From positions 62,001 to 126,000 of IMG/VR virus record IMGVR_UViG_3300047311_000323: a stretch of 64,000 nucleotides of DNA. The stretch is one strand, 5' to 3'. This DNA is from a virus. Under the pieces are notes generated by a model. That model was not told the origin of the DNA, searched no databases, and was given only the letters and a program-made list of their open reading frames with translations. The position numbers and the translations under genes were made by a program. Below, piece after piece: positions 26,490 to 61,447 of the stretch (position 1 is its first letter; each line of letters opens with the position of its first letter).

Positions 26490-27563
26490 TTAGATATTCC
26501 ACTTATCCTCATAGATATCGGTACCAATATCAGAAGTTCCAGTAAATGGCTCTTCTACTTGCTCGGTTTGGTCAGCATCGTGACCTTCTGGATCTACGCC
26601 ATCTGGCAAGCCAAATAAACCGTCTTCAGATGGGGTTAGGTACTTATTAAAAAGTTTTTGCAGGATATCCTCGTGAAGACCTCTAGCTGGCTTTGTCTCT
26701 TCGTCATAATCTCTACCGAAATTAAGGGCATCAGCCGAACGACCATCAAAATCGTTTTCTGGTAAATAAGAGTGCTCACCAGCAATCTGTCCAGATTGGA
26801 ATGAACTCTGGAAAAGCTCAGGTCCTATATCTCCTGGGAAAAGAGAATAGTCATCATTGCCTGCAGGACCTAACGGACCCACTAGTCTTGGCTTATGATA
26901 CTGCTCTTCACCAGGATAAATCATTTGGTTATAGTGGTTTACCTGTTCATCAATCGGGAAGTCAATATGATTGACATCCTTTTTCTTCTTCTTTTTTGGA
27001 CCAGGGGTGCCTTGATATGGACTGTTTTTCCAATCATAGATACTGGTGCCATGCTCTTTAGGCGGAAGCATATGATCGGCATTGTCATCGGCAAAGAAAG
27101 CGCCTGGACCGTGATCTTCCTCTTCCCTGAACTCTTCAACACTGTCAACTTTGCCATCGCTCATTTCTTGATAGAGACCTTTTCCTAAATCATAATTAGG
27201 GCCTGCGGTCTTGATTATTCTTTCAAAAATAGCTGCACGGGCTTTAATGCCAGGATTTTCTTTAGTACGTTTGCCAGAATCCAATTGCCAAGAATCGTCG
27301 GCTTCATAGCGACCCTTCATCCTACTACGCCTTGCTTCTAGAAATTCCTGGACGCTATCGTAATTTTGTAGACCGTGGTATCCCGTGCCGGGGCCGATGT
27401 CCTCCATGCCGGGAATTGTATACAAATCGTAGTTGTAATAAAATGGTTCTTCAAAACGTGGCTGAACAACCAAGGCCGGATCGGACTTGTATTTCTTTTC
27501 ACCAGGCGTTGGTTCGTTGACCCCGCCTCCACCTTGGAAATAACCTTTCTTATTGACTGACAT
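26490..27563 (-). CDS. Late-region protein with N-terminal motif shared with the protease-scaffold
   Basis: A 357-residue protein. The ATG at 27563 is chosen because AAGGA lies 8 bases upstream; it overlaps the nucleotidyltransferase gene by 14 bases. It opens MSVNKKGYFQGGGGVNEPTPG, nearly the same as the NKQAYFQGGGGVNEPTPG head of repeat 1 in the protease-scaffold protein. The rest is Tyr/Asp/Gly/Pro-rich, with KKKKKKDV in the middle and an acidic C-terminus. The shared head suggests a common sorting, binding or processing signal during head assembly. Confidence 0.55.
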   Translation of the reverse strand: MSVNKKGYFQGGGGVNEPTPGEKKYKSDPALVVQPRFEEPFYYNYDLYTIPGMEDIGPGTGYHGLQNYDSVQEFLEARRSRMKGRYEADDSWQLDSGKRTKENPGIKARAAIFERIIKTAGPNYDLGKGLYQEMSDGKVDSVEEFREEEDHGPGAFFADDNADHMLPPKEHGTSIYDWKNSPYQGTPGPKKKKKKDVNHIDFPIDEQVNHYNQMIYPGEEQYHKPRLVGPLGPAGNDDYSLFPGDIGPELFQSSFQSGQIAGEHSYLPENDFDGRSADALNFGRDYDEETKPARGLHEDILQKLFNKYLTPSEDGLFGLPDGVDPEGHDADQTEQVEEPFTGTSDIGTDIYEDKWNI

Positions 27564-28323
27564 TGGATTTTCCTTTAACATGCTTCATGTAGTATGGATA
27601 TACCTTTTCTGTAATTGGTATCTGAGTCCATAGATTCATCTGAGTAATTAGTTGAGCTGCCTTCTCTGGATTCCTAGTGAAAGCTTCATTTAGCTTATCG
27701 TTCATTGATTTCTCAGTTGAAATCTTAACAGTTTCAGGATACTTTCTTACATACTCAATAATTGAATCATCCAAGTCAAAATCCAATTTACAAGCAAGAT
27801 AAATTGCCCTTACAACTCTATTCCTATTAGAAGTGAGAGTTACCTCAGGCGCTAAACAAGTTCTAATCTTCTTCTCTTTGATATCTTTGAATCCTCGTTT
27901 AGTTGGATCCAAAGTTTGCTTTAGGTCTAACGTCAGCAACAAAGAGTTACAGGTAAAATCACGACTGAACATTTCGCGCTGCATGTTGGTAGGATTTCTG
28001 ATTCCTAACTTCGCTAGCTCTTGGTCAATGTTTTCGACCATAAAATTAGAAGAGAAGTCTACCTTCAAAGTACCTACGAAGATAGAGCTGTGTCCATCTT
28101 CCATAGTTTTTCTGGTGACGTTATACTTCTTACGAAACTCAATGAAAAACTCTTGAGACAAATAGTCAACGGTCTTATCACCAGTAGTAACATCTATGTC
28201 GGCGATGTTTTCTAGTTTACCCATGTACTTATCTCTAGGCGTACCTCCGCAGATATAGGGCGGAGATGCGCCTATCTGTTCTTGCACTCTCTTCATTTCT
28301 GAAAGCAGTTCGCGGAGTTTCAT
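27550..28323 (-). CDS. Nucleotidyltransferase of the CCA-adding/poly(A) polymerase family
   Basis: A 257-residue protein with class II pol-beta-type nucleotidyltransferase motifs: YICGGTPRDK (25-32, the GG..RD helix), DIDVTT (42-47, two metal-binding Asp), FSRDFTCNSLLL (the R-R-D-F-T-x-N region) and DPTKRGFKDIKEKKIRT (the D..G..DI...IR region). These are hallmarks of bacterial tRNA nucleotidyltransferase and poly(A) polymerase I. It is shorter than bacterial CCA enzymes (about 400), so the C-terminal tRNA-body domain is reduced. It may repair or tail RNA, or act on another substrate. No tRNA gene is in this window. It sits among late genes. Confidence 0.8.
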   Translation of the reverse strand: MKLRELLSEMKRVQEQIGASPPYICGGTPRDKYMGKLENIADIDVTTGDKTVDYLSQEFFIEFRKKYNVTRKTMEDGHSSIFVGTLKVDFSSNFMVENIDQELAKLGIRNPTNMQREMFSRDFTCNSLLLTLDLKQTLDPTKRGFKDIKEKKIRTCLAPEVTLTSNRNRVVRAIYLACKLDFDLDDSIIEYVRKYPETVKISTEKSMNDKLNEAFTRNPEKAAQLITQMNLWTQIPITEKVYPYYMKHVKGKSNVSQ

Positions 28324-48816: not shown

Positions 48817-49482
48817 TTACCTTGACAAGATAATCTTTAAATCTTTTTCGTCAAGGCTTTGGCTATTGTCGTAAAAATAGTTGATCTTCTTGAATTGATC
48901 TTTCCAAAACTTTTTATTATGAGTCTTTTTGGTAAGTAATTCTTGTAAATCATTGAATGATAATCTGCGATGACGGAACAGGGCGTGTGAAACCACCATG
49001 ACCGCATCCCAATGAGCATGAAGCTCTTGTTGAACTTCTCTCATTAGCTTTTGTTTATAAAGCGTTCTTTTAGGCCCTGGAGGTGCCAGGTTGTACTTTT
49101 TAATCACCTCTCGGGCTGATTTGTTGTCATCACTGGAGCCATCACTAATAAACGTTGGAGTTTGTCTAGATCCCGAAATACTTCTAAACAAAGAGGTTTC
49201 CGCAATCAAACCAGCGTAACTAATGCCAACTTCGGCTCTAACTAAGGTATTTAATAGGTCAGAATCTTGAATCTCATCAAAATCACTGGGATAATCGTAA
49301 TATGTAATTCCGTGAATTCTTTTTAATTTCTTATTTTCAAATACTGCAACTGAACTAACCTTCATTAGATGCAATAGCGCGTAAACTGTATGTCCAGCTT
49401 CATGATATGAAGTAGATATAAATTCGTGGGTTTTGGTAACTTTCTTTCTGATTTCAGCGATAGAACCTGTCCCATTTGCCAT
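48817..49482 (-). CDS. Stand-alone M41 (FtsH-type) peptidase-domain protein
   Basis: A 221-residue protein with the zinc-metallopeptidase motif HEAGH at 27-31 (TSYHEAGHTVYALL), the defining site of FtsH peptidase domains. A downstream acidic region (ISDGSSDDNKSAREVI) stands where the third zinc-ligand Asp is expected. There is no AAA+ ATPase domain and no membrane segment, whereas FtsH (about 650 residues) has both. It must act without its own unfoldase, or borrow one. The ATG at 49482 is chosen (GGGGTG upstream), with GTG at 49488 as alternative. It is the last of a run of short genes after trigger factor. Confidence 0.75.
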   Translation of the reverse strand: MANGTGSIAEIRKKVTKTHEFISTSYHEAGHTVYALLHLMKVSSVAVFENKKLKRIHGITYYDYPSDFDEIQDSDLLNTLVRAEVGISYAGLIAETSLFRSISGSRQTPTFISDGSSDDNKSAREVIKKYNLAPPGPKRTLYKQKLMREVQQELHAHWDAVMVVSHALFRHRRLSFNDLQELLTKKTHNKKFWKDQFKKINYFYDNSQSLDEKDLKIILSR

Positions 49483-49484
49483 TA

Positions 49485-49763
49485 TCACCCCATTCTGACA
49501 AGTAACGCCTCAAAATCATTGAGGGATTGGGTACAGTCTGCTTTTTTGCACTTTGCATTGAGCTTGTCCCCACCAAACGGACCTGTTACTATTAAGTCCG
49601 AATTATCGGCATACACCATGCCGGCTTTGGTAAAGTGGGGAGCCTCTGTAAACCCGTTACTTTTCAGAATGTCAAGCAAGGCTTGGTCCACAGGTCTGTC
49701 TAATTTGAAGACGATCTGTGTCTTGTTGCAACATGCTTGTATGAGGAACCTTTCAACCTTCAT
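49485..49763 (-). CDS. Small protein of the trigger-factor operon, unknown function
   Basis: A 92-residue protein with a compact alpha/beta pattern (QIVFKLDRPVDQALLDILKS, FTKAGMVYADNSDLIVTGPF) and four Cys (CCNK, CKKADC). It overlaps the next upstream gene by one base (TAATG). It looks like a globular small domain; no known function is recognised. Confidence 0.5.
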   Translation of the reverse strand: MKVERFLIQACCNKTQIVFKLDRPVDQALLDILKSNGFTEAPHFTKAGMVYADNSDLIVTGPFGGDKLNAKCKKADCTQSLNDFEALLVRMG

Positions 49764-50083
49764 TAGGTTCCTTTGTTATCTAGATCCACGCCTTTGCTCT
49801 CTAAGCACAGTAGAGCATACTGAATCTTAGCTTGCTGATGCTTCTTAGCATCACGATGTGGAGCAGATAGTTCTTTGGACGTTTCTCTTGCAGCAGCAAG
49901 AGCCAAGTCGGCCTCTTCCTCTTTACTGAGAGTGTAAAGGTTACCCTCACACTCAACAATAATCTTCTTTAGCTCATCAACACCAGCCGCATCGGCCGTG
50001 TCTTTGAACTCTGGCATCTTCTTAATGAGATCGTCCCACTTCTTAGGTAAACTAGTCAATGGGGTATTGATAACTTTTGCCAT
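49763..50083 (-). CDS. Small helical protein of the trigger-factor operon
   Basis: A 106-residue helical protein (PLTSLPKKWDDLIKKMPEFK, EEEADLALAAARETSKELSA). No motif is recognised. It lies 15 bases after trigger factor and overlaps the 92-residue gene by one base. It may work with either neighbour; unknown. Confidence 0.45.
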   Translation of the reverse strand: MAKVINTPLTSLPKKWDDLIKKMPEFKDTADAAGVDELKKIIVECEGNLYTLSKEEEADLALAAARETSKELSAPHRDAKKHQQAKIQYALLCLESKGVDLDNKGT

Positions 50084-50098
50084 TTATACTTTCTCCTC

Positions 50099-51346
50099 TT
50101 AATCAATCAATTTTACTGTCTTAACTACATAGTCCATAGTATTCTCGTCTCTAATACGAGAGAATAGAATCTGTAGGTAACCTGTCTTATTCATTTGCTG
50201 AATAACTTCATCTAGACTTTGGGTAACCTTAGTTTGAGCTAGGTTCTGTTTGATAATCTCAAATACTTCTTGATCAGTCAACTGAGCATCGGGCTCAGCT
50301 TCTCTAATCTTATCCAAGACCAAAGATAGCTTCACATTCTGTGCAGCCATTTCAATCATTCTTTCTTTATCAGAGTCTGGCAATACATTCCAGTCTAGCT
50401 GGGACTGTTGCGTCAAATACTGAGCTTCTGATAGAGACATCCAATTTGGAACCTGGACTTCTGTTTCAGCAACTAGCTTCTTAGCGACAGCTTCATGAAT
50501 AGCCATCTTGTTCATGGATGCAGAGCGAGCAAATGCGGCTTGAGCCACAGTCTCCTGCAATTCGGCAAAGTTGGTTTTACCAATCTTCTTAGCCATCTCA
50601 TCATCCAATGCACATGGCACAGTCTTAGAACCCATCATCAAAGTAACTTTGAAGTGGATGCTCTTGCCTGACAAAGATGGTAAACCGCCTTCAGGGGACA
50701 CGAAATCAAATTCTCGCGTCTCGCCCATAGTCATGCCCAAAAGGTTGTTGTCAAAAGCTACTAGTGGACTGCTACCAATGGTAACCATTTCACCTTCAGC
50801 AATTAGACTATCAACCTTCTCACCATCTACAGTGCCGACGTAATCAATGATAACATTGTCTCCGGCCTGCACGAAATCCGTCTCGCCATATGGAGAGGTG
50901 TCGCCAAGTCGTACACGCAAGTCCTGCATCATCTTTTCGCCTAGCGAAGTGGCATCGGCTTGTTCATGAGGCTTTGGAATCTCAATGTCTTTCCAAGCTG
51001 GTAGTTCGAAATTTGGTTTCGTCAAAATCTCAAACTCACAAGTAAACTTGCCGCCATCAAGCAACAAGTTATTGAAACGAGGTGCTCCGTGTGGTCTAAG
51101 CTTCTTTTCGAAGAGAGTATTGTGGAAAGCATCTTCAGCTAGCGCGCGCTTGAGAGCGTCATCAATCTGCTGACGATAATGGATTCGGATATGTTCGGGA
51201 CCGGCCTTGCCTTCTCGAAATCCTGGCACTGGTGCCTTTTTGAAATGGGTTTCTACTTCCGCTCTCTTGTCAGAGATTTCTAGGAAGTTAGCCTCATAGT
51301 GAACGGCCAATCTGCATTGTTCAATTTCAGTTACATCAATTTTCAT
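50099..51346 (-). CDS. tig: Trigger factor (ribosome-associated chaperone)
   Basis: A 415-residue protein, close to the 432 of E. coli trigger factor, with all three parts. The N-terminal ribosome-binding domain (1-110) contains PGFREGKAGP with GFREGK at 42-47, the signature that docks on ribosomal protein L23 at the exit tunnel. An FKBP-type prolyl isomerase domain follows (about 150-245: AGDNVIIDYVGTVDGEKVDS to LPSLSGKSIHFKVTLMM). The C-terminal helical arms (250-415) cradle nascent chains. The start has GAGGA 5 bases upstream. The docking site is intact, so it probably competes with or replaces host trigger factor on ribosomes, favouring phage proteins; this is an inference. Confidence 0.92.
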   Translation of the reverse strand: MKIDVTEIEQCRLAVHYEANFLEISDKRAEVETHFKKAPVPGFREGKAGPEHIRIHYRQQIDDALKRALAEDAFHNTLFEKKLRPHGAPRFNNLLLDGGKFTCEFEILTKPNFELPAWKDIEIPKPHEQADATSLGEKMMQDLRVRLGDTSPYGETDFVQAGDNVIIDYVGTVDGEKVDSLIAEGEMVTIGSSPLVAFDNNLLGMTMGETREFDFVSPEGGLPSLSGKSIHFKVTLMMGSKTVPCALDDEMAKKIGKTNFAELQETVAQAAFARSASMNKMAIHEAVAKKLVAETEVQVPNWMSLSEAQYLTQQSQLDWNVLPDSDKERMIEMAAQNVKLSLVLDKIREAEPDAQLTDQEVFEIIKQNLAQTKVTQSLDEVIQQMNKTGYLQILFSRIRDENTMDYVVKTVKLID

Positions 51347-51355
51347 CGGTTCCTC

Positions 51356-52141
51356 TTACCAGTTAACTTCACCGTAAACTTGTTGATCAAAAGCTTTACT
51401 CTTGCCGGCTGGGCACTGTTGTAGATAATCGCAATAGTTACAGAGATTGGTTGGGGTTGGCGGAAACTCTTTTTCCGCTCTCATTTGTGCAGCATACTCT
51501 TCGAACTTATCTTTCACCGATAGTATCTCGGCCAAAGAGAACTCCGTTGTAATATACTCAAAATCATGCCTCAACAACACATAAGAGCCCCTTACTTTCG
51601 TAATAGTGGGATCATCGTGAAGTAGCACGTAAGCATATGTCAAGAGTTGGAACCAATCATTCTTCAGATATTTTTTATGTTTGGTCGTTTTGTAGTCGGC
51701 CACGTGGATGACATTATCAGCATCCAACTGAATCCTGTCAATTGCTCCGTTTAAAACAATATTTTCAGTGATCGGAAAGTCGAATCTTTTTTCTGCCGCA
51801 ATTACGTTGGCTGGCATGCCGCTTTGTTTTTCTTTTGAAGCAAGCGCCAAATATCCGTTGAGAATTTCCCAGCATTCCTTTTTCATCTCTGGAGTCATTC
51901 TGTCTTTGAATTCCGCCCAAGCATGTTTGAATGCATCACCCATTGTAACATTGTATGGCAGCAAGCAACCATCAATATACTGCTTATGAAAATACTCTAA
52001 AGCTGAGTGGCAGAATTTACCAAAAGTGTGAAACTCCCATTCTTTGCGTGGCAATTTCTCAACATAACAAAACTTAAACTTAGCTTTGCAATCCAAAAAG
52101 GTTTTGGTCTTGCTAACCGATAGGCGCAATTCATCTGTCAT
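51356..52141 (-). CDS. RecB/Cas4-type PD-(D/E)XK nuclease with iron-sulfur cysteine pattern
   Basis: A 261-residue protein. The nuclease core is LNGAIDRIQLDADN followed by VADYKTTKHKK, giving the G-x-x-D...D-x-K site. Cys18 (FLDCKAKF) together with the C-terminal CNYCDYLQQC trio has the spacing of the 4Fe-4S cluster that clasps AddB/Cas4-type nucleases. It probably degrades or trims DNA ends in recombination. It lies 9 bases before trigger factor. TGATATAT and an inverted repeat are in its leader. Confidence 0.85.
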   Translation of the reverse strand: MTDELRLSVSKTKTFLDCKAKFKFCYVEKLPRKEWEFHTFGKFCHSALEYFHKQYIDGCLLPYNVTMGDAFKHAWAEFKDRMTPEMKKECWEILNGYLALASKEKQSGMPANVIAAEKRFDFPITENIVLNGAIDRIQLDADNVIHVADYKTTKHKKYLKNDWFQLLTYAYVLLHDDPTITKVRGSYVLLRHDFEYITTEFSLAEILSVKDKFEEYAAQMRAEKEFPPTPTNLCNYCDYLQQCPAGKSKAFDQQVYGEVNW

Positions 52142-52165
52142 TCGTAATTCTTCCGTTTAATGTGT

Positions 52166-52186
52166 AATACTTATATATCAAGTATT
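52166..52186 (-). promoter_or_regulatory. TGATATAT element inside a 7-bp inverted repeat, upstream of the nuclease gene
   Basis: The minus strand has AATACTT-GATATAT-AAGTATT, a perfect 7-bp inverted repeat enclosing the octamer TGATATAT (52173-52180), 32 bases before the start at 52141. Promoter plus operator in one is plausible. Confidence 0.45.
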
Positions 52187-53109
52187 CAGGGCAATTGTTT
52201 CCTGTCAAAATTAGGATCATCATAGTCTAGGATCTTAGATCCAAAAGCCCTAACTACTTTAGGCGCGCTCATTGAACTTTGATTGTACCCATACTTGGTA
52301 ACAAAATCTGTATTGTGGAACTGGAATTTTGGTTCCTTTGAGTTTGTAATATCTGCCTTCCAAGAGCCCATAGGACTTATAGGGTCTTTACCGGCGTGAT
52401 GGACTTTATGCATCAACATATACTGGCCTTGCCCTTTAAGTAGGATAAAATCCTGAGCCAGAACATTGTATATGTTTTGAGGGGCGGGAGGTGGGGTCGG
52501 AGTAGTTGGCGTCGAAACAGGACTATTGGGGCTAGGTGTCTTAACGGGCACTTTTGCGTTAACTGCCGTAAATGGTGCTTGAAACTTCTTCAAAGAAGAT
52601 TTGATCTCTTCAAGAAGTTTAACATACTGATCAGCGATCTGATGAATGGCCTTATCCTGTGAAGTACTTAGCTGATCATACGCCCCATTAAGCGTAGTTA
52701 GATCTTGCCCTTTGGACTGAAGAATTCTCACCAACTCTTCATACTTCTTAGTTGTCTCCTCGTAAGAAAGAATGAACTCCTTCTTCGTATCAAAAGACCT
52801 TTCATCGCCTTTGAAATATTCATACAAAATGTATTGCTCTAACGGTTCAATAAAACACTTATCAGGACCATTGATAATAACATCATCCGTTATTCTAGCC
52901 TCATAAGTGCTGCCCCCATCTTGAGCAGATCCCATCAAACTGTGCTTGGGGTTTGCATTTAGCACCTTGAGAAAATCGCCTTTTGTATTTCTCTTGCTGG
53001 CATCTTCGGCAATACCGGGCTTATATGCATAAGTCCTAAAGTCATCATTGCTGTTAACCTTTTTGGCTTTGCACTTTCTTGAGTACAAATCAATCATTTT
53101 ATCTTTCAT
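52186..53109 (-). CDS. Uncharacterised protein with Pro-rich linker
   Basis: A 307-residue protein. The N-terminal 180 residues are helical and charged, with a coiled-coil-like section (EETTKKYEELVRILQSKGQD); a Pro/Ser/Thr linker (PTTPTPPPAPQN) follows, then a C-terminal beta-rich domain (FILLKGQGQYMLMHKVHHAG). No motif is recognised. It has its own sigma-70-like promoter. It could be a virion-associated protein in the replication half; unknown. Confidence 0.45.
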   Translation of the reverse strand: MKDKMIDLYSRKCKAKKVNSNDDFRTYAYKPGIAEDASKRNTKGDFLKVLNANPKHSLMGSAQDGGSTYEARITDDVIINGPDKCFIEPLEQYILYEYFKGDERSFDTKKEFILSYEETTKKYEELVRILQSKGQDLTTLNGAYDQLSTSQDKAIHQIADQYVKLLEEIKSSLKKFQAPFTAVNAKVPVKTPSPNSPVSTPTTPTPPPAPQNIYNVLAQDFILLKGQGQYMLMHKVHHAGKDPISPMGSWKADITNSKEPKFQFHNTDFVTKYGYNQSSMSAPKVVRAFGSKILDYDDPNFDRKQLP

Positions 53110-53137
53110 TTTAGCTTTATCCTTGCAATGTCAAATA

Positions 53138-53166
53138 TAAATAACCGGCGGGGAGCCGCTTGTCAA
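53138..53166 (-). promoter_or_regulatory. Sigma-70-like promoter upstream of the 307-residue gene
   Basis: On the minus strand a perfect -35 box TTGACA (53161-53166), 17 bases of spacer and a weaker -10 box TATTTA (53138-53143), 29 bases before the start at 53109. It lies in a 98-base gap after the virion-like gene. This is the clearest host-type promoter seen in the window. Confidence 0.5.
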
Positions 53167-53207
53167 CGCCCAAATACTTTTTGGATTTACGGCACTATTG
53201 AGGAAAA

Positions 53208-54242
53208 TTAGAATAGAACGCGCCTGGTAAATGGCAGCCACTCGAAAACTACGCCAGCTCCGCTCTTGGTTCCCATAGCTGTTGCTGCCATGTTTCCGTC
53301 AAACGTTCCGTTGGGTTGGTAAGGTGCTGTGGAGATAATCCATTTGTTAGACCAGGAGTCTCTGTAATAATGTGTAATTGTATTGGTACGTGGGTTGTAG
53401 TGCGCTCTTACAAAAGAACCGCTTATTGGGGCTGAGGCATCTAGTCCAGTATTGAAATAGAAAGTGCCGTCCCTGGCTCTCTCAGGATTCTCTAGTGTGA
53501 AAAACTGTCTGTTAATCTGTGGAGGATCGTTTGGGTCCTCTTTGCTAAAGTCTTGGAAGATAACCATAGCCCTAGGGTCAAACAAATTGGTAAATTGCTG
53601 AGTCTCCTCTGGGCCCTGTCCTGAAGTCTGTCCCCTATCTATCTGAACGTCACTTGGGTACGGCAAAGTGGTTTTGCCTGGCATGTTACCAATATTGCCA
53701 CCTTGATTACCGCTAGCGTCTCTATCTGTGTAAGTGATTTGATAGTTGGTAGAATTGTATGGTTTGTTGGTGAATCCAGTAGGATTTCCCTTCCCATCAT
53801 ATCCGTTTGGAATAGCTGGCTTTGAAGGATCATAAACTGCGCCATCATATGGTCCCGCATTGGCCGGGTTAGTGTATCCCTGTTGCGGCTGGAATGGAGG
53901 AGTTCCAAATGGATAGGCGTCTGGAATAACGCTACCGGCTTCAGCGGTAGTTCCAGAGTGTGGCAAACGGGCATTGCCGTCTACAATGTTAGTCATATAC
54001 TGATCAACAACAATCGGAGATGAATCTACACCGTTAGTGGCTAGCGCTTTTAGTGTAACCAATAGCTGGTCAAATGGCAAAAAGATTGGACCTGTGTACA
54101 TGCTAGAGAACAAAGTTGGGTCAGTGCCATCTAGGGTATAGAAAATGGTAGCTGGAATATTGGTGGTAATAGAGACCGTCTTAGGTATTCCTGAGACTAC
54201 CTGTTCTGACGATTGTGTAATTGTAACGCTAATGACTGCCAT
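53208..54242 (-). CDS. Putative virion protein with chitobiase-C-terminal-like domain
   Basis: A 344-residue protein. Residues 1-85 resemble the immunoglobulin-like domain at the end of chitobiase/beta-hexosaminidases (IPATIFYTLDGTDPTLFSSM, then YTGPI), which in phages often decorates tail or neck proteins. The middle is Gly/Asn/Pro/Tyr-rich and the end has beta strands (GTFYFNTGLDASAPISGSFV). No catalytic motif. It is a probable structural protein, coupled to the 104-residue gene by one base. Confidence 0.55.
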   Translation of the reverse strand: MAVISVTITQSSEQVVSGIPKTVSITTNIPATIFYTLDGTDPTLFSSMYTGPIFLPFDQLLVTLKALATNGVDSSPIVVDQYMTNIVDGNARLPHSGTTAEAGSVIPDAYPFGTPPFQPQQGYTNPANAGPYDGAVYDPSKPAIPNGYDGKGNPTGFTNKPYNSTNYQITYTDRDASGNQGGNIGNMPGKTTLPYPSDVQIDRGQTSGQGPEETQQFTNLFDPRAMVIFQDFSKEDPNDPPQINRQFFTLENPERARDGTFYFNTGLDASAPISGSFVRAHYNPRTNTITHYYRDSWSNKWIISTAPYQPNGTFDGNMAATAMGTKSGAGVVFEWLPFTRRVLF

Positions 54243-54243
54243 A

Positions 54244-54558
54244 TTATACCAAATTGAGGAATTTTGCGTTTCTTTCGGTCATCTGTTTCTTCAACATGAC
54301 ACGGTAGACTTTATGACCGGCTCGGCGAAAGACTCGGGCTAAATCTAAATAAACTTCCTCACCTTCTCTCCTATACAGAATTATGAACTGGTCATAATAA
54401 TCTAAAAACTCCAACTCAGGTGATTGACCTTTGAAGGAGCCTTTTTCAATATAGATTAGTTTATTTAAAGCGTAAAGAAGCAAGAAGCGATAGAATTTCT
54501 GTTCTCCTGTCGCCAGGTACTTGGGTACAAAGTTCCTTTTAAGGGCCTCAACGCTCAT
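54244..54558 (-). CDS. Small protein of unknown function
   Basis: A 104-residue protein with a hydrophobic, aromatic core (KFYRFLLLYALNKLIYIEKG, FLDYYDQFIILYRREGEEVY) and basic C-terminus. No signal or membrane segment is convincing. Its leader contains TATAAT-like sequence (AAGTATAATGTG) on the minus strand. The function is unknown. Confidence 0.45.
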   Translation of the reverse strand: MSVEALKRNFVPKYLATGEQKFYRFLLLYALNKLIYIEKGSFKGQSPELEFLDYYDQFIILYRREGEEVYLDLARVFRRAGHKVYRVMLKKQMTERNAKFLNLV

Positions 54559-54586
54559 TATAAGGATATGTCACATTATACTTAGT

Positions 54587-55222
54587 TTATCGCTGTAAGC
54601 GTGGAACTATATTGTTTTTAACCTCTTCCTTCAAATCTTCTAGGGATTTGTTGTTGAATAATACATAGTCGAATTCTTCGTCTTTGATAGAGCTTTGACC
54701 AGTCTCACTAATGTGTTCAATAGGGGCCATACCCGTATCTCGATACAAACGAATTTGGAAAAAGCCCTTCTTCTTGAGGTGGTCAAACTCATTTCGGAAT
54801 CTGACATCGGTTACTACCAATATATTGGGAGGCGTCTTCTTCAAAAGAACCTGGTCATAACGGTGGTCAAAATTCTCTAACCAAACCTTATCATTGTAGT
54901 TACGGCCGACCTCAGTACCGATATCAATCAACGCCTGCCTGTATGTCAAGGGTTTGTCTCCTTTGAATGCACCAGGAATTGGTTCAGTGCGTAGGTGTGA
55001 TGGGCCGTATAGACATTCTTTATTGGCTCTTGGGAACATAACCATCACTATCTCTTTGATAGGATCGGCAAAGGCCATAAACTTACCTTGATAAGCCTGA
55101 AGATTGATAGCGTGTTTTGCCATGAACTCAGCGCTGTCTCGTTCATAGGCTTCCTGGTATAGAAGATTGGCTAACGTGTTCTTGCCAGTATTAGCTCTAC
55201 CAGTTATTGCAATTTTGTACAT
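54587..55222 (-). CDS. Deoxynucleoside monophosphate kinase
   Basis: A 211-residue P-loop kinase: Walker A ITGRANTGKNTLANLL (6-20), a lid region, and LVVTDVRFRNEFDHLKKKGF typical of T4 gp1-type dNMP kinases, which phosphorylate dNMPs from degraded host DNA to feed phage DNA synthesis. It has GGGGGT before the ATG and lies 9 bases after the SbcC gene in the nucleotide/recombination operon. Confidence 0.85.
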   Translation of the reverse strand: MYKIAITGRANTGKNTLANLLYQEAYERDSAEFMAKHAINLQAYQGKFMAFADPIKEIVMVMFPRANKECLYGPSHLRTEPIPGAFKGDKPLTYRQALIDIGTEVGRNYNDKVWLENFDHRYDQVLLKKTPPNILVVTDVRFRNEFDHLKKKGFFQIRLYRDTGMAPIEHISETGQSSIKDEEFDYVLFNNKSLEDLKEEVKNNIVPRLQR

Positions 55223-55231
55223 CTGACCCCC

Positions 55232-57457
55232 TTACCACGAGGAAACTACTCGGGCACGTGATATCATGTTTATATCTTGTTCTACTAGAACGGCATGAGA
55301 AAACTTATCCTTCAAACGATCATTGTGCGTAATAACCAAAATGGAATAATCCTTCTGGAAAAACTTTACAATGTCCGCAAAGAAATCTACACTGGCCTTA
55401 TCCAAAGATTGGTCAATCTCATCCAATAGTAGGAATTTGACATCTACTCCACTCAATTTTTGGAGTAGAAATGAAAGTCCTAATTTCAGACTGAAGTTAA
55501 CGGCTAACTGCATGGCGCCAGAAATGTTCTCATAATAGCGCTTCTTGCCATTAATTGAATATTGAATATCCAATGTATCAGCTTGATCGCCAGTCTTTTC
55601 TACCGTCTTCTCAATAGAGAATGACAATTGAAGACCTGGCTTTAGTTGAGTTAGCAGGGCATTAGCCTCTATCTGCAAATCATCTAACACATTTTGAATA
55701 ATTAGATTTGGGATACCAGTGCTAGAGAAAGCTTGAACAACGGCTGGATACATACCCAACTTATCTTCAAGTTCTTTTTGTAGCTTGATATACTCAATCT
55801 TCTTGCGCTTCTCATCAGCTCGTTGATTCATTTCATGCTGTAAAACAGCTTTGTTACTATTGAAATGAGTTAGCTCTTTGTTGTTGAGAAGATTTTGATT
55901 CTCAATAACTTTAGCTTTCTGCTTGGCCTCGTGAATTTCCTTCTCCAGAACCTTAGCTTCTGTGATAGAGGAGTTCTGTAGATCTTTAGCGACTACATCC
56001 ATCTCCTTAATCTTATCTTCTAGTTCTTGGTTGAACTTATCCAAAAGAGCTTTGTATTCATCATGGATGGTGCGCCTATCAATCATCTCCTTCTTCTTGG
56101 AAGAAATCTTGCTATTGATACTCTCTAAATGTTGTTTGGAAAGCGTCAGATGATTGATGGTCTGCTGATGCACGGTGTTCTGCGTATTGAGGGCAGCAAT
56201 ATCCTTCTTGCAATTTTGCATATTGATTTGCTTCTCGCCTCGCTCCTCGTTCAGCTTCTCCTGACAGATTTTCCTGTGTTCTGCTGTGATGGGCTGGCGG
56301 CATTCCTCGCACTCACCATCATGCGGGATTGGCTTCCTCAACTTCTCCATCCTTGCCATATCATTTTGAATGGTAAGGTTTAATTGAGCAGACTTCTCTT
56401 TATTAGAGATAATCTGTTCTGACAGAATATCTATCTGATGGAAATCTAGTGCTGCCAGCTTAACCTGAGTTTCTTCAAGCTCTTTTAGCTCAACAATTGA
56501 CTCCTTAGCTAGCTTTACTATATTGGATTTCTTAGTGGTATACTCTTTGATAGATGTTTCTATTCTAGTCTTTTCGTTATTGAGAGTTTGCTCCCTAACA
56601 ACCAAAGCCGAAAACTTCCCCTCTAGGTTAGCATGGAGATTGACAAGCTGATTGATCTTTTCGTTAGCTAGAGTAATCTGAGCTTCGAAATCGCCTACTT
56701 TGGTTTGGCGGTCATCAATTTCCCTATCTACTGCTGCCAGTTTGCCAGCAATCTCTGCCAAGGCATGATCTGGGTCGCCAATGCTATCGATAAGCGTACG
56801 GAACCTATCTGCCTCTTTAGAAAGAGCAGAAGACTTGTCTTTAGCAATCTTTTCCAGCTTGGAATAGATGATTAGGTTTAAAGCATCTTTGAGAATCTTT
56901 TTACGAGTCTCGGGCGTGGCAGTCGTTAGTCCGCCGAAATCATGCTGCATGAAATGCACGAAAATCCTGAAGGACTTTAGATTTACCTTGACTAGCTTGC
57001 CAATTTCCTTTTCTGTATCAGGGGTGCGGCGGCCAGAAATGTCTTTCCAGTACTTTTCCTCATCATCCGCAACGGGAACATATCGGTCCCCACTAATACT
57101 ATGAAGGGCGTCGGTTTCCTCGCCCTCTAAACCGGTACGCTTGTAGAGCGTCAAATCACTTGTACCCTTGCGTGTACGTGTGCGTGTGGCTCTGTATTCT
57201 TCATCACCTACCATAAAATCAAAGGTGATACTGCACTTATCTGCGTCATCTCGAACGATGTTCTCCAAATTAACATCAGAGTGATTGAACAATACGTATT
57301 CAATAGCTCGGAAGATGGTTGTCTTTCCTACGCCGTTTGACACGTCATTGTTATTCTCGGTCTTGCCAACAATGAGAGCCGAACTGAATTCAGAGAAGTC
57401 AATATAGGCGTCATCATAGCACATGAAGTCCTTGATGTACAATCTGGATGGCTTCAT
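55232..57457 (-). CDS. sbcC: SbcC/Rad50-type ATPase (T4 gp46-like)
   Basis: A 741-residue SMC-type protein. Walker A is split by a short insert (IVGKTENNNDVSNGVGKTT); two long coiled coils flank a zinc hook GECEECRQPI (near 379). The C-terminal half has the ABC signature region (YENISGAMQLAVNFSLKLGL), Walker B LLLDEIDQSLD and H-loop ITHNDR. With the nuclease subunit encoded next to it, it resects DNA ends to start recombination-dependent replication. The start overlaps the SbcD stop by four bases. Confidence 0.9.
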   Translation of the reverse strand: MKPSRLYIKDFMCYDDAYIDFSEFSSALIVGKTENNNDVSNGVGKTTIFRAIEYVLFNHSDVNLENIVRDDADKCSITFDFMVGDEEYRATRTRTRKGTSDLTLYKRTGLEGEETDALHSISGDRYVPVADDEEKYWKDISGRRTPDTEKEIGKLVKVNLKSFRIFVHFMQHDFGGLTTATPETRKKILKDALNLIIYSKLEKIAKDKSSALSKEADRFRTLIDSIGDPDHALAEIAGKLAAVDREIDDRQTKVGDFEAQITLANEKINQLVNLHANLEGKFSALVVREQTLNNEKTRIETSIKEYTTKKSNIVKLAKESIVELKELEETQVKLAALDFHQIDILSEQIISNKEKSAQLNLTIQNDMARMEKLRKPIPHDGECEECRQPITAEHRKICQEKLNEERGEKQINMQNCKKDIAALNTQNTVHQQTINHLTLSKQHLESINSKISSKKKEMIDRRTIHDEYKALLDKFNQELEDKIKEMDVVAKDLQNSSITEAKVLEKEIHEAKQKAKVIENQNLLNNKELTHFNSNKAVLQHEMNQRADEKRKKIEYIKLQKELEDKLGMYPAVVQAFSSTGIPNLIIQNVLDDLQIEANALLTQLKPGLQLSFSIEKTVEKTGDQADTLDIQYSINGKKRYYENISGAMQLAVNFSLKLGLSFLLQKLSGVDVKFLLLDEIDQSLDKASVDFFADIVKFFQKDYSILVITHNDRLKDKFSHAVLVEQDINMISRARVVSSW

Positions 57458-58650
57458 TCTTTACCCTCAGTTTTATAGATGTTGTAGATTTCCATAGACA
57501 GCTCGATAAAGCCGGGTCTTGCAGCATCTTCTATATAGGTCTGCGCATAGGTTTTGATAGCCGCAGACACATCCATCTTCGAATCAATAGTGTTGGTATT
57601 ATCTTTCTTGATCAGATTAACCTTTTTAGATTCAGAAATGGCATTGACATTGAAGGCACCATTGCCAGTCAAATACTTTTCGATTATAGACTTGTTGATG
57701 GACTTGAGATCAGGAGAAGTTAGCGAAACTTCAACACGTACGATTGCTTGGTTCTGGACGCCAGCCTTCTTTACCTGCTCCAAAACATAGGCCGTAGTAT
57801 CTTCAGTATCCTTAGGAACACTGATAGTAATCTTTTGCAAAGGTCTAGTTGGCAGATATTCTTGGCTCCAGCCATTCTCCTCATCACAATTGAAAATGAC
57901 GATATGTTTCTTATGGTCGGTTTCACCGAAGTTAGAAATGTCCATACTTCCAATATGGGCGATGTAAGGATCCTTCTTCTTCATTACCTGCGGCTTATGA
58001 ACGTGTCCCATCCACACATAGTCGTATCCTTGGAACATATCCAAAGGACAAAACAACTCGTTAGTGAGGTCATCAATTTCATCACCAACTGGGATAGAGC
58101 CCTCGATGGCCAAATGTCCAATCACAACTTTGTGATAAGTGTCTGGGATACTGGCAAGCTCGTAGACAAGACTATCTCGAACCAGCGAAATTGCTTCCGC
58201 ATTCGATCCTACACTGAATGATTTTCTATCACGAAAGGGCACCATTGTAAAAGCGGTAGTGCCAATTATGATCGTGTTAATGTCCTTGTAGACACTAATC
58301 CCGTCTAGTTCGACCTCACTAATGATATCAAGCGGGGAAGTAGACACAAGTCCGCTACGTAAGATATCGTGATTGCCCACAATGATGTGGACTTGGACAT
58401 CATGCACTTGACATTTCTTGAGCCAAGCGATAAATAGTGTAATCAGAGCGGGATGGGGCTTTGGGTCTTCAAACACATCTCCTGTGAGGATGATATGATC
58501 AGCATGGTGCTCAATAGCACGATCCAACGTCCAATCCAAAAGATTAAGTTGATCAACGATGCGACTATTCAGTGTGGAACCGATACCACCTTTACCGATG
58601 TTCGTTCCTTTACCCAAGTGCACATCGCCAAGAATTATGGCATTTGTCAT
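57454..58650 (-). CDS. sbcD: SbcD/Mre11-type nuclease (T4 gp47-like)
   Basis: A 398-residue metallophosphoesterase with all motifs: ILGDVHLGKG, LTGDVFEDPK, VGNHD, VIGHLAIEG and WMGHVHKP. These coordinate two metals in Mre11/SbcD. The C-terminal part binds the ATPase partner. It overlaps both SbcC and the CHC2 primase gene by ATGA, linking primer synthesis with end processing in one operon. Confidence 0.92.
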   Translation of the reverse strand: MTNAIILGDVHLGKGTNIGKGGIGSTLNSRIVDQLNLLDWTLDRAIEHHADHIILTGDVFEDPKPHPALITLFIAWLKKCQVHDVQVHIIVGNHDILRSGLVSTSPLDIISEVELDGISVYKDINTIIIGTTAFTMVPFRDRKSFSVGSNAEAISLVRDSLVYELASIPDTYHKVVIGHLAIEGSIPVGDEIDDLTNELFCPLDMFQGYDYVWMGHVHKPQVMKKKDPYIAHIGSMDISNFGETDHKKHIVIFNCDEENGWSQEYLPTRPLQKITISVPKDTEDTTAYVLEQVKKAGVQNQAIVRVEVSLTSPDLKSINKSIIEKYLTGNGAFNVNAISESKKVNLIKKDNTNTIDSKMDVSAAIKTYAQTYIEDAARPGFIELSMEIYNIYKTEGKE

Positions 58651-59273
58651 GGTTTATATAGGGTTATGTATTCCTTGAAAAGCCCAACAACACGCTGTAA
58701 TGCCTCATTGTTAAGCTTCTTTCTCAGATTCAGCGTGTCGAATTTCTTGCACGCTGCCTCAACATATACCCCTGCTTCCTCGGTCGGATAAGTCAGATAA
58801 AACTCGCGAACGGTGTTTGAAAAGTCCATCATTAATTTGAGGCGCTCTTCAAAATCTTCGGGGTCATAGATGTTATCCTCATCTACATCGGAAGCATACT
58901 GTTGAAGTATTTTATAGGCTGCTTGTACTTTAGTGATACCATCCATAGCTGCCATGAATTCACAGCCATGTGCGTATTGACCACCAATCTTGCAACCGAA
59001 ACAATAGAAACTGTTTGTCTCAGGATAATAGTAGAAAGAGCCAGATCGTTCGCGGCCACCTTTATGTGACTTGAACGGGCACGTCGATTTCTTATTATGT
59101 GAGTCTAAATGAATATTGTAATGCTTGAAGAGCTTGACAATAGGGACCGTATTGGCCTTACTAATCAGCTCTTGGTAATAATCTTTTCCTGCAAAAGCTG
59201 CTGAAGGACTTCCAGTTTCCCCTGGTGTCTCGCCATCGCTATCGGATCTGGAGGTATTTGGTAGAGGGCACAT
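58647..59273 (-). CDS. CHC2 zinc-binding primase subunit (DnaG N-terminal half)
   Basis: A 208-residue protein with the CHC2 zinc site: STCPFKSHKGG (Cys65, His70) and SFYCFGCKIGG (Cys91, Cys94), preceded by helices typical of DnaG. This domain recognises template for priming. The catalytic TOPRIM half is a separate gene 22 kb away (35557-36333), so the primase is split. The listed ATG lacks a ribosome site and gives a 109-base overlap with the gene at 59165. A non-canonical CTG at 59168, overlapping that gene's stop as CTGA, would match the 4-base overlap habit of this genome. Confidence 0.8.
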   Translation of the reverse strand: MCPLPNTSRSDSDGETPGETGSPSAAFAGKDYYQELISKANTVPIVKLFKHYNIHLDSHNKKSTCPFKSHKGGRERSGSFYYYPETNSFYCFGCKIGGQYAHGCEFMAAMDGITKVQAAYKILQQYASDVDEDNIYDPEDFEERLKLMMDFSNTVREFYLTYPTEEAGVYVEAACKKFDTLNLRKKLNNEALQRVVGLFKEYITLYKP

Positions 59274-59344
59274 AATTGGGAATATTGCCCGAAGCGCTCT
59301 TTTTCTTCGGAAATTAAAGATAAAAGTAGCTCCTTGGGTGTCAT
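59165..59344 (-). CDS. Small amphipathic helical protein upstream of CHC2 primase
   Basis: A 59-residue ORF (MTPKELLLSLISEEKERFGQ, continuing to LEVLQQLLQEKII), helical with well-spaced hydrophobics. Its ATG is 7 bases after the upstream stop. The composition looks more protein-like than the overlapping N-terminal extension of the CHC2 frame, so one of the two overlapping readings must be partly wrong. It could be a small primase-related peptide; the function is unknown. Confidence 0.45.
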   Translation of the reverse strand: MTPKELLLSLISEEKERFGQYSQLCALYQIPPDPIAMARHQGKLEVLQQLLQEKIITKS

Positions 59345-59351
59345 GGTCAAG

Positions 59352-59897
59352 TTATTCACTACCTTTTTTCTTGTCAAGCGCTTTAGTAATTTCTTTGTTT
59401 ATGAAATCGGCCATTGCAACAGGATCTAGCTTCTTATTGAGTACAGATAGATGATACTCTAACTCATTCATCTTGTCTCTCTGATTGAAACAAGTTTTGA
59501 GAAGGAGGACAATCCAAGTTAGGGAGCCTTCACTTTCTCTTTCATTTGGGTCGCTATTAATCTCTGCTGCAAGCACAATCATATTCTGCAGCAGTTCTTT
59601 TTCAGATTCCGCATTGAATACGTTACGATTTTGAGGAAGAGTTTTATCAGCCATCGACTTTTGAAATTGCACGAACAGTTCGGCCGCGCGCTTCTTATAC
59701 CCAGACTGAACATCTTGAACTTGTTGAACTTGATGTTGGAATTCTTGCTGGGAAGGCTTTTTGCGCTTGCCATCAAACATGGATTGGCCCTGTGACTTTA
59801 CACCGCCTCTTGGCGTATACTCGTCTGGCCCTTGTAAAGACTGCTGTCCCTGATTTGGATGTCCTTGATTTGGTGGCGGTCCATTTCTATTCGTCAT
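59352..59897 (-). CDS. Uncharacterised protein with Gln/Pro-rich N-terminus
   Basis: A 181-residue protein. The N-terminal 55 residues are Asn/Gln/Pro/Gly-rich and disordered; the rest is helical (FQHQVQQVQDVQSGYKKRAA, LLQNMIVLAAEINSDPNERE). No motif is recognised. It lies in the primase-SbcCD operon. Confidence 0.5.
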   Translation of the reverse strand: MTNRNGPPPNQGHPNQGQQSLQGPDEYTPRGGVKSQGQSMFDGKRKKPSQQEFQHQVQQVQDVQSGYKKRAAELFVQFQKSMADKTLPQNRNVFNAESEKELLQNMIVLAAEINSDPNERESEGSLTWIVLLLKTCFNQRDKMNELEYHLSVLNKKLDPVAMADFINKEITKALDKKKGSE

Positions 59898-59907
59898 ACA
59901 ACCTCAA

Positions 59908-60294
59908 TTATCTCTTCTTGGAAGGAATGAGTGGCTTAGGGACACGTTTGATAATCACAAACTTGTCAGCCAACTCAACTGTGAAATCTGGAGACACGGC
60001 AGCTTCCAAAGAAGGAAGAGTTGCGCTAGAACGAATAGTTACATACAAGGCGCTTGGCTCTATCCCAACAAATGTGGCATGTTGAAAAACATACTGATCT
60101 GGTAGGCCGAACATGAGGATTGGGCGATTTTGAATCTCGGCCCAAATCTTGTCCGCTTCTGATTTGACAGGAGGCGCTGGAGGCGCAACAACTACTGGAG
60201 CTACAACCGGAGCTTCAACTTTCTTTACCTTTTTAACAGGCTTCTTGGTTGTTTTGGCGGCAGTAACTTTCTTGTTTTTCTTAGTCTTTGGCAT
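59908..60294 (-). CDS. Protein with Lys-rich histone-H1-like N-terminus
   Basis: A 128-residue protein. The ATG at 60294 is chosen with GGAG 8 bases upstream. Residues 1-35 are Lys/Thr/Val/Ala-rich (PKTKKNKKVTAAKTTKKPVK), like the tails of H1-type DNA-binding proteins; a Pro/Val/Ala linker and a compact C-terminal domain (LYVTIRSSATLPSLEAAVSP) follow. It may coat or bridge DNA, or bind RNA. This is inferred from composition. TGATATAT lies 33 bases upstream. Confidence 0.5.
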   Translation of the reverse strand: MPKTKKNKKVTAAKTTKKPVKKVKKVEAPVVAPVVVAPPAPPVKSEADKIWAEIQNRPILMFGLPDQYVFQHATFVGIEPSALYVTIRSSATLPSLEAAVSPDFTVELADKFVIIKRVPKPLIPSKKR

Positions 60295-60315
60295 AGTTTT
60301 CTCCACTTACAGTAT

Positions 60316-60624
60316 TCAAGAGTTACATATATCAGCAAAAGTGCTTCTAAAAGCGCTGGTTAAAACCAGCCCACTGATTCGCTTAACCTCTTTCCCGTCC
60401 TTCAGAACTAATACTTCGGGGACAGAATTGACTGCAAACCTCTTACATTGATTAGGAAAAGCGTCAACATCTACCGCAAAAAAGGAGATATCCTTATGTT
60501 TTTCTTCAATTTTGCTTATCATAGTAAGAAACTTATTATGGTACGGCATCCAGGAAGCATAAAAATATAAAGCCTGCAATGGCAGGTCAATTTGTAATTC
60601 CTCTTCTTGCGTGATGAATTGCAT
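60316..60624 (-). CDS. Thioredoxin-fold protein lacking the active-site cysteines
   Basis: A 102-residue protein with thioredoxin layout: strand LQALYFYASWMPYHNKF (17-32), where the usual WCGPC is replaced by SWMPYHN, then helix, strand ISFFAVDVDAFP, and the cis-Pro region VNSVPEVLVLKDGKEV. It has no CxxC, so it cannot act as a dithiol reductase. It could be a structural partner, as host thioredoxin is for T7 polymerase; that is a guess. It is coupled by TAATG to the 85-residue gene. Confidence 0.7.
   Translation of the reverse strand: MQFITQEEELQIDLPLQALYFYASWMPYHNKFLTMISKIEEKHKDISFFAVDVDAFPNQCKRFAVNSVPEVLVLKDGKEVKRISGLVLTSAFRSTFADICNS
60327..60334 (-). promoter_or_regulatory. Candidate phage promoter element TGATATAT upstream of the Lys-rich gene
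   Basis: A minus-strand TGATATAT located inside the last codons of the thioredoxin-like gene, 33 bases before the start at 60294. The spacing equals that seen at 35519 and 52173. Confidence 0.4.
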
Positions 60625-60881
60625 TAGTTCTTGAGGTCTTTCTTTTCTTTATCAGAAGCTTCCAAATCCGCAATGAACTCTTCTATGTTCTTAGAGGCTT
60701 GGGCCCTCTCAATAACCACTTTAGCTACTCTTTTAGCAATTTCCTCAGTAGAAGAAGTTAATTCTTCTTGAGTGAAAACGCCCTTTTCAATTAGAAGCTT
60801 TTCAATAGCAGTTACGCGCAGCATAATATCTGCCATCATAATATCATTAGTTAGTTCTTGCTTATCTTTTTTGTCAGTCAT
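60624..60881 (-). CDS. Small helical charged protein
   Basis: An 85-residue helical protein (DIMLRVTAIEKLLIEKGVFT, continuing with Lys/Glu-rich sequence). AGGAG lies 6 bases before ATG. It overlaps the thioredoxin-like gene by one base. It could be an adaptor or inhibitor; the function is unknown. Confidence 0.5.
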   Translation of the reverse strand: MTDKKDKQELTNDIMMADIMLRVTAIEKLLIEKGVFTQEELTSSTEEIAKRVAKVVIERAQASKNIEEFIADLEASDKEKKDLKN

Positions 60882-60919
60882 TAGAATCTCCTGTATCTTC
60901 TATAACAGGAAGAATGGTC

Positions 60920-61447
60920 TTAGCGACCACAACACTTCTTATATTTCTTGCCAGAACCACAGATACAAGGTTCGTTGGGGCCAACTTTAGCTTTCTTGAT
61001 CACTGGCACCGGTTTAGGAATACTACGATCCATAAACAGCGTGGAATTCAAATGGTCCAGCTCGTGCTGACAAACGACCGCCACGAACCCACTAGCTACA
61101 AAGCTATGAGGCTCAGTCAGATTATTGACGATGTACACCTCCTGAAATCGTGTGGTATTCTCCGAACGACCAGGGAAAGACAAACATCCTTCATCTGTAA
61201 AAGTGGCAGGGTCGAACCCTTGGACTAACTTAGCGTTCACTAAGTTGAAACTTATCTTTGGCAAACGCACAATAGCAATATCTTTAGCGATACCTATTTG
61301 GGGCGCGGCTAAGCCGATGCCATTTTTTCCTAGACGATTAGCGTGCTCCAGCTCTTTTTCAAGAAGCTCTACTAACGAACCAACCTCGTCCATGGTCACA
61401 GGTTCGCAAAATACACGCAGCGCAGCTTCATTATTTGTGATTATCAT
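60920..61447 (-). CDS. def: Peptide deformylase with C-terminal SEC-C motif
   Basis: A 175-residue enzyme removing the N-formyl group from new proteins as they leave the ribosome. All three motifs are present: GIGLAAPQ (43-50), EGCLS (86-90) and QHELDH (127-132), giving the metal ligands Cys and two His and the catalytic Glu. The last 25 residues form a SEC-C zinc motif ([17 protein letters not shown]), a fusion not found in ordinary bacterial deformylases, which may add a docking site. AGGT precedes the ATG. Phage deformylases are known, for example in cyanophages, where they favour phage or photosystem proteins. Confidence 0.92.

Follow-up and report, generated by a model that had tools for sequence, protein, structure and literature searches.

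A trigger factor, a peptide deformylase ending in a SEC-C metal knuckle, a DnaJ and an M41-like protein are phage-owned core genes of a lineage of huge tailed phages, and, judging from their sequences, the chances seem about even that the first two act at the ribosome of the host. In bacteria, trigger factor and deformylase share a site of action, the exit of the ribosomal tunnel. The window, which is the whole stretch of 64,000 nucleotides that was analysed, comprises bases 62,001–126,000 of the 198,396-base IMG/VR virus record IMGVR_UViG_3300047311_000323 and belongs to a tailed phage, as a terminase (phrog_675, 6e-61) and a portal (phrog_16240, 6e-50) were detected in it. The initial annotation had located the four genes correctly and had left their strand unstated; all four lie on the minus strand (Table 1). 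The nearest isolate relative of the portal (window 20260–22143, minus strand) is that of Bacillus phage G, at 33.5% identity, which suggests a distant kinship with this 497-kb phage.

Table 1. Positions in the window of the genes and motifs discussed, with the evidence for each.
Feature	Position	Strand	Evidence
DnaJ, 310 aa	36681..37613	-	Pfam; all large contigs tested
M41-like peptidase domain without ATPase	48817..49488	-	AlphaFold, Foldseek, FtsH profile match
HEAGH zinc motif of the M41-like protein	49390..49404	-	HE[AS]GH in 42/42 loci
X92, conserved Cys-containing protein	49485..49763	-	42/42 loci
Y106, conserved protein directly downstream of trigger factor	49763..50083	-	42/42 loci
Trigger factor, 415 aa, three domains	50099..51346	-	Pfam, PDB sequence match, Foldseek to 1w26
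GFREGK ribosome-docking loop of trigger factor, residues 42–47	51206..51223	-	sequence
Thioredoxin-like protein beside deformylase	60316..60624	-	Pfam Thioredoxin 2.7e-10; conserved neighbour
Peptide deformylase with C-terminal SEC-C, 175 aa	60920..61447	-	Pfam, alignment
SEC-C metal knuckle (CxC...CC) in place of ribosome-binding helix	60923..60976	-	Pfam SEC-C

The trigger factor is full-length and its docking motif is intact, as had been proposed from the first reading of the sequence. The Pfam domains Trigger_N (5e-17), FKBP_C (1.3e-5) and Trigger_C (5.9e-8) follow one another in order, all above the cut-off. Trigger factor chains were matched in a sequence search of the PDB, and in a Foldseek comparison the predicted model matched E. 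coli trigger factor 1w26 over its full length (E 4.7e-22), the relative placement of the domains in the model being uncertain (pTM only 0.54). The phage protein therefore shares domain order, docking loop and predicted fold with bacterial trigger factor (Tig; E. coli 1w26, V. cholerae 1t11), whereas its identity to the bacterial trigger factors compared does not exceed about 28%, it is encoded by a phage and not beside clpP/clpX, and it differs in its peptidyl-prolyl isomerase (PPIase) region, where the loop is shortened and two conserved positions are changed. In the alignment, the FEGG and EDY positions are lost, some aromatic positions remain, and each of the eight phage rows displayed has an IPGF loop shorter by one residue. 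The docking loop conforms to G[FYC]R.G[KHR] in 41 of the 42 phage loci (the exception reads GFRKNK) and is conserved among phage trigger factors down to 38% identity. Its retention while the PPIase region was rewritten suggests selection on docking and chaperoning, not on isomerase activity, and we infer that the phage protein has kept the former two functions with a weakened isomerase.

The kept docking loop and degraded PPIase region would also suit a competitor that displaces host trigger factor from uL23, leaving host chains mishandled or defence proteins misfolded. Such a role is highly improbable, because the substrate-binding C-terminal domain is kept and strong purifying selection acts on the gene, whereas the N domain alone would suffice. 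It is unlikely, to a much lesser degree, that the protein acts chiefly away from the ribosome, as an assembly chaperone devoted to a small number of large virion or replication proteins, with the deformylase as an independent auxiliary gene. Bacterial trigger factors also bind folded assembly intermediates (the title of the Foldseek-matched PDB entry 3gty names folding and assembly activities), the phage gene sits in a replication/recombination block and its PPIase region is altered, all of which would agree with a function of this kind; however, the docking loop, which is not needed off the ribosome, persists at the lowest identities within the clade.

An alignment-based scan of IMG/VR recovered 41 trigger factor loci on contigs of up to 480,838 bases, and trigger factor identity across this clade of contigs is 38–86%. 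A 127-base terminal repeat on one of the contigs (451,956 bases) is consistent with a complete genome. In an independent check by terminase search, trigger factor was present in all seven contigs of at least 100 kb and in two shorter ones, and the terminase-search contigs without it are all shorter than 53 kb; no related contig of sufficient length to be judged lacks the gene. In a tree of 20 phage and 24 bacterial rows, some of the bacterial rows being duplicates and the bacterial sampling limited, the 20 phage trigger factors stand together on one side (branch support 100/100, length 1.47), a topology consistent with a single ancient acquisition and vertical descent thereafter. Because the clade is so deeply separated, the gene is neither contamination nor a recent host gene. 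Recent transfer from a host was considered and rejected, since a scan of genome contigs, made with phage-biased peptide patterns, gave only trigger factors of 21–27% identity and the phages form one clade in the tree.

In the isolate-phage collection, the trigger factor search returned weak matches only (below 35% identity); almost all of the records are unannotated, and the single one with annotation is plainly a bacterial locus, tig-clpP-clpX, that was wrongly labelled as phage. Weak matches and a mislabelled bacterial locus would be in keeping with bacterial contamination or mis-assembly having brought host genes into the window. This explanation can practically be dismissed, however, because 42 contigs share the phage gene order, all large terminase contigs have trigger factor, the phage proteins form their own clade and the gene is present on the 452-kb contig with the 127-bp terminal repeat. 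Among the PHROGs, the unnamed family phrog_26774 matches the window trigger factor (3e-27), so that a related sequence had already been clustered, although not named.

For the deformylase, Pfam (Pep_deformylase 9.8e-25; SEC-C 2.5e-9, above the cut-off) and alignment confirm the three motifs and the SEC-C tail that the initial annotation had reported; the window protein has GxGLAAxQ, EGCxS and HExDH, and with them the active site, intact. Among 29 full-length phage deformylases, motif I is found in 28, motif II in all 29 and motif III in 28, the deviants being the relatives L041 with a variant motif I and L044 with HEIGH in motif III, and the Cys knuckle tail is present in all 29 by inspection and in 19 by a strict pattern. 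The phage enzyme is without the C-terminal ribosome-binding helix of types 1A and 1B, a linker and SEC-C standing there instead, and it retains the FMD segment treated by Grzela et al. (PMC5591237). The deformylases of cyanophage S-SSM7 and Vibrio phage Vp16 have the same catalytic motifs and likewise no C-terminal ribosome-binding helix, but the window protein has the SEC-C knuckle in addition; the best 20 deformylase matches in isolate phages end at residues 134–143, before SEC-C. No deformylase-SEC-C fusion was found among the listed isolate-phage deformylase matches or in the open-access literature, and in 100 Pseudomonadota genomes none of the stop-free deformylase matches listed ran into SEC-C, SEC-C matches in the same genomes lying at separate places, some of them in SecA-length proteins. 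A C-terminal SEC-C knuckle is also present in the metal-binding domain of SecA, in YecA and in YchJ, from which the phage domain differs by its fusion to deformylase.

The E. coli deformylase contacts the ribosome via its C-terminal helix (PMC5591237, PMC12690207), and the metal-binding domain of SecA interacts with 70S ribosomes, the SecA C-terminal tail crosslinking to or near uL23 (PMC6620043). By analogy, it is plausible that SEC-C is the ribosome tether of the phage deformylase. SEC-C in SecA also binds SecB (PMC8076867), and because SEC-C domains have such other partners, the tail may have a purpose other than tethering to the ribosome.

The initial annotation had proposed looking for trigger factor and deformylase-SEC-C genes together in large phage genomes, and the two do co-occur, the deformylase being absent from short contigs only. 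It lies upstream in 31 of the 42 loci as fetched and was found by direct search in four of the other 11, giving 35 of 42 contigs, and the remaining seven are all of 35.5 kb or less. The order trigger factor-Y106-X92-M41 is kept in all 42 loci and in two more distant contigs, and these genes abut or overlap. Values of dN/dS of about 0.02–0.12, approximate because dS is near saturation in several pairs, indicate purifying selection on all the genes, and together with the conservation in 42 loci they exclude chance. PD-(D/E)XK, SbcCD-like and thioredoxin genes, among others, also belong to the 12.6-kb block, and their order is constant throughout the clade. Because recombination genes are kept in order too, adjacency from trigger factor to M41 is not proof of joint function; it reflects a stable core genome and not a dedicated operon.

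It is possible, although on the improbable side, that no joint system exists and that this core genome acquired trigger factor, deformylase, DnaJ and the M41-like protein independently of one another, as four helpers with a role each. The conserved order of the whole block, including unrelated recombination genes, the distance of 11 kb to DnaJ and the occurrence of deformylase and of DnaJ each alone in other huge phages (PMC7162821, PMC12619734) would all be in keeping with separate acquisition, whereas the shared site of action of trigger factor and deformylase in bacteria, and the fact that the four genes are never apart in contigs long enough to judge, argue for a common role.

Of the M41 peptidase without ATPase that had been claimed, the fold, the HEAGH motif and the absence of an ATPase stand, and the family assignment is to be weakened: the Pfam M41 match is sub-threshold (E 0.015, 15.6 bits against a curated cut-off of 29.9), so that the product is better described as a remote M41-like protein. 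Its open reading frame reaches 49488 with a GTG start, relatives favour the ATG at 49482, and neither an AAA ATPase nor a membrane anchor was found in its 223 aa. The AlphaFold model (pLDDT 86.7) matches FtsH/m-AAA peptidase domains in Foldseek with a best E of 2.7e-5 and a probability of 1.00 at modest TM-scores, and the profile of the clade matches E. coli FtsH (0.0021) over a stretch that includes HEAGH and the region of the distal Asp. The likeness to the peptidase domain of FtsH/m-AAA (M41) thus lies in the predicted fold and the HEAGH motif, and the difference in the small size, the low sequence similarity and the lack of ATPase and membrane segment. The free-standing V. cholerae structure 5iqj, which has no assigned function, also matches the model, and ATPase-free versions of the M41 fold therefore appear to exist elsewhere. 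No match to the M41-like protein was found in isolate phages, and no relatives of Y106 or X92 in the PDB. An SPFH partner for the M41-like protein was considered and dropped, the candidate having no Pfam match. A part for this protein in nascent-chain turnover, as initially proposed, is speculation.

The DnaJ, which had been called complete, has a J domain (4e-15) and a DnaJ_C domain (3.2e-21), both above the Pfam cut-off, with HPD visible in the sequence, but its central CXXCXGXG zinc domain (E 2.7e-6, 28.0 bits) falls under the cut-off of 32.7, and the gene lies about 11 kb outside the range to which it had been assigned. DnaJ was found in every contig of the two sets tested, 12 of 12 and 13 of 13. 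Neither GroEL nor Hsp70 was found in 15 large contigs, the control genomes being positive in 14 and 12 of 14 cases, and the phage DnaJ would therefore need host DnaK.

Ribosome binding, timing and clients of the phage proteins are what we infer in the following scheme. Through its GFRxGK loop, the phage trigger factor would dock on host uL23, and it would cradle nascent chains with its prolyl-isomerase activity weak or absent. The phage deformylase would strip N-formyl groups, its SEC-C knuckle, in replacement of the missing C-terminal helix, would keep it close to the exit, and DnaJ would hand clients to host DnaK. Such handling of newborn chains may sustain the synthesis of very long phage proteins. 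Host trigger factor is abundant, and the phage copy must therefore be well expressed to matter. A wider proposal, in which the viral trigger factor and the SEC-C-tethered deformylase form one ribosome-exit machine with the linked Y106, X92 and free M41-like peptidase, long kept in this huge-phage lineage and taking over host nascent-chain handling, is doubtful.

The open frame at the record end spans about 2,100 codons and continues beyond it, and other long phage open reading frames encode 1,693, 1,514 and 1,364 aa. TAG recoding behind the seemingly gene-free record end was considered and rejected, as one long ordinary open frame lies there. Two predicted tRNAs with a CUA anticodon (L107 1813–1887 and 3232–3305, minus strand), a class I W/Y tRNA synthetase (record 195796–196758, minus strand) and a TAG stop in only 3 of 155 open reading frames of at least 150 aa hint at amber suppression or TAG avoidance. 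Outside the window, all on the minus strand, are genes for a NifU/IscU-type scaffold (5e-54; record 153633–154067, L107 8633–9067), an IscA-type Fe-S protein (1e-15; record 182622–182957, L112 2622–2957) and an adenylosuccinate synthetase family protein (1e-107; record 184200–185339, L112 4200–5339) that may represent either PurA or the PurZ type which phages employ for modified-base DNA. An AAA ATPase (record 177857–178963) and a DUF2201 metallopeptidase/VWA-like protein (record 190812–192611), also outside the window and on the minus strand, resemble a MoxR-VWA pair. The motif GYFQGGGGVNEPTPG, or a close version, occurs twice inside a 1,252-aa protein (window 11173–14931, minus strand) and N-terminally in a 363-aa protein (window 26490–27581, minus strand), and is perhaps a cleavage or packaging tag. 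An Rfam search of the window and three flanking pieces gave no match, and a promoter and terminator scan gave consensus matches only.

Phage-encoded tRNAs, translation factors, ribosomal proteins and deformylase are known, and within this takeover of translation the trigger factor and the SEC-C deformylase are the new elements. The initial annotation knew of no phage with such a combination; deformylase has been reported in huge phages (PMC7162821) and DnaJ/DnaK in moraphages (PMC12619734), whereas no description of a phage trigger factor was found in the open-access literature. The systems of these two reports resemble the present one in phage deformylase, tRNAs, tRNA synthetases and DnaJ, but their main texts do not mention trigger factor, which here is a universal core gene, and DnaK and GroEL are absent here. 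As a universal core gene, trigger factor would bring nascent-chain folding into the phage takeover of translation, and an enzyme could, as the SEC-C deformylase suggests, be tethered at the ribosome exit in a second way. With its altered PPIase site, the phage protein amounts to a natural experiment that can show which functions of trigger factor are important, and because trigger factor and deformylase are small and soluble, their binding to the ribosome is directly testable.
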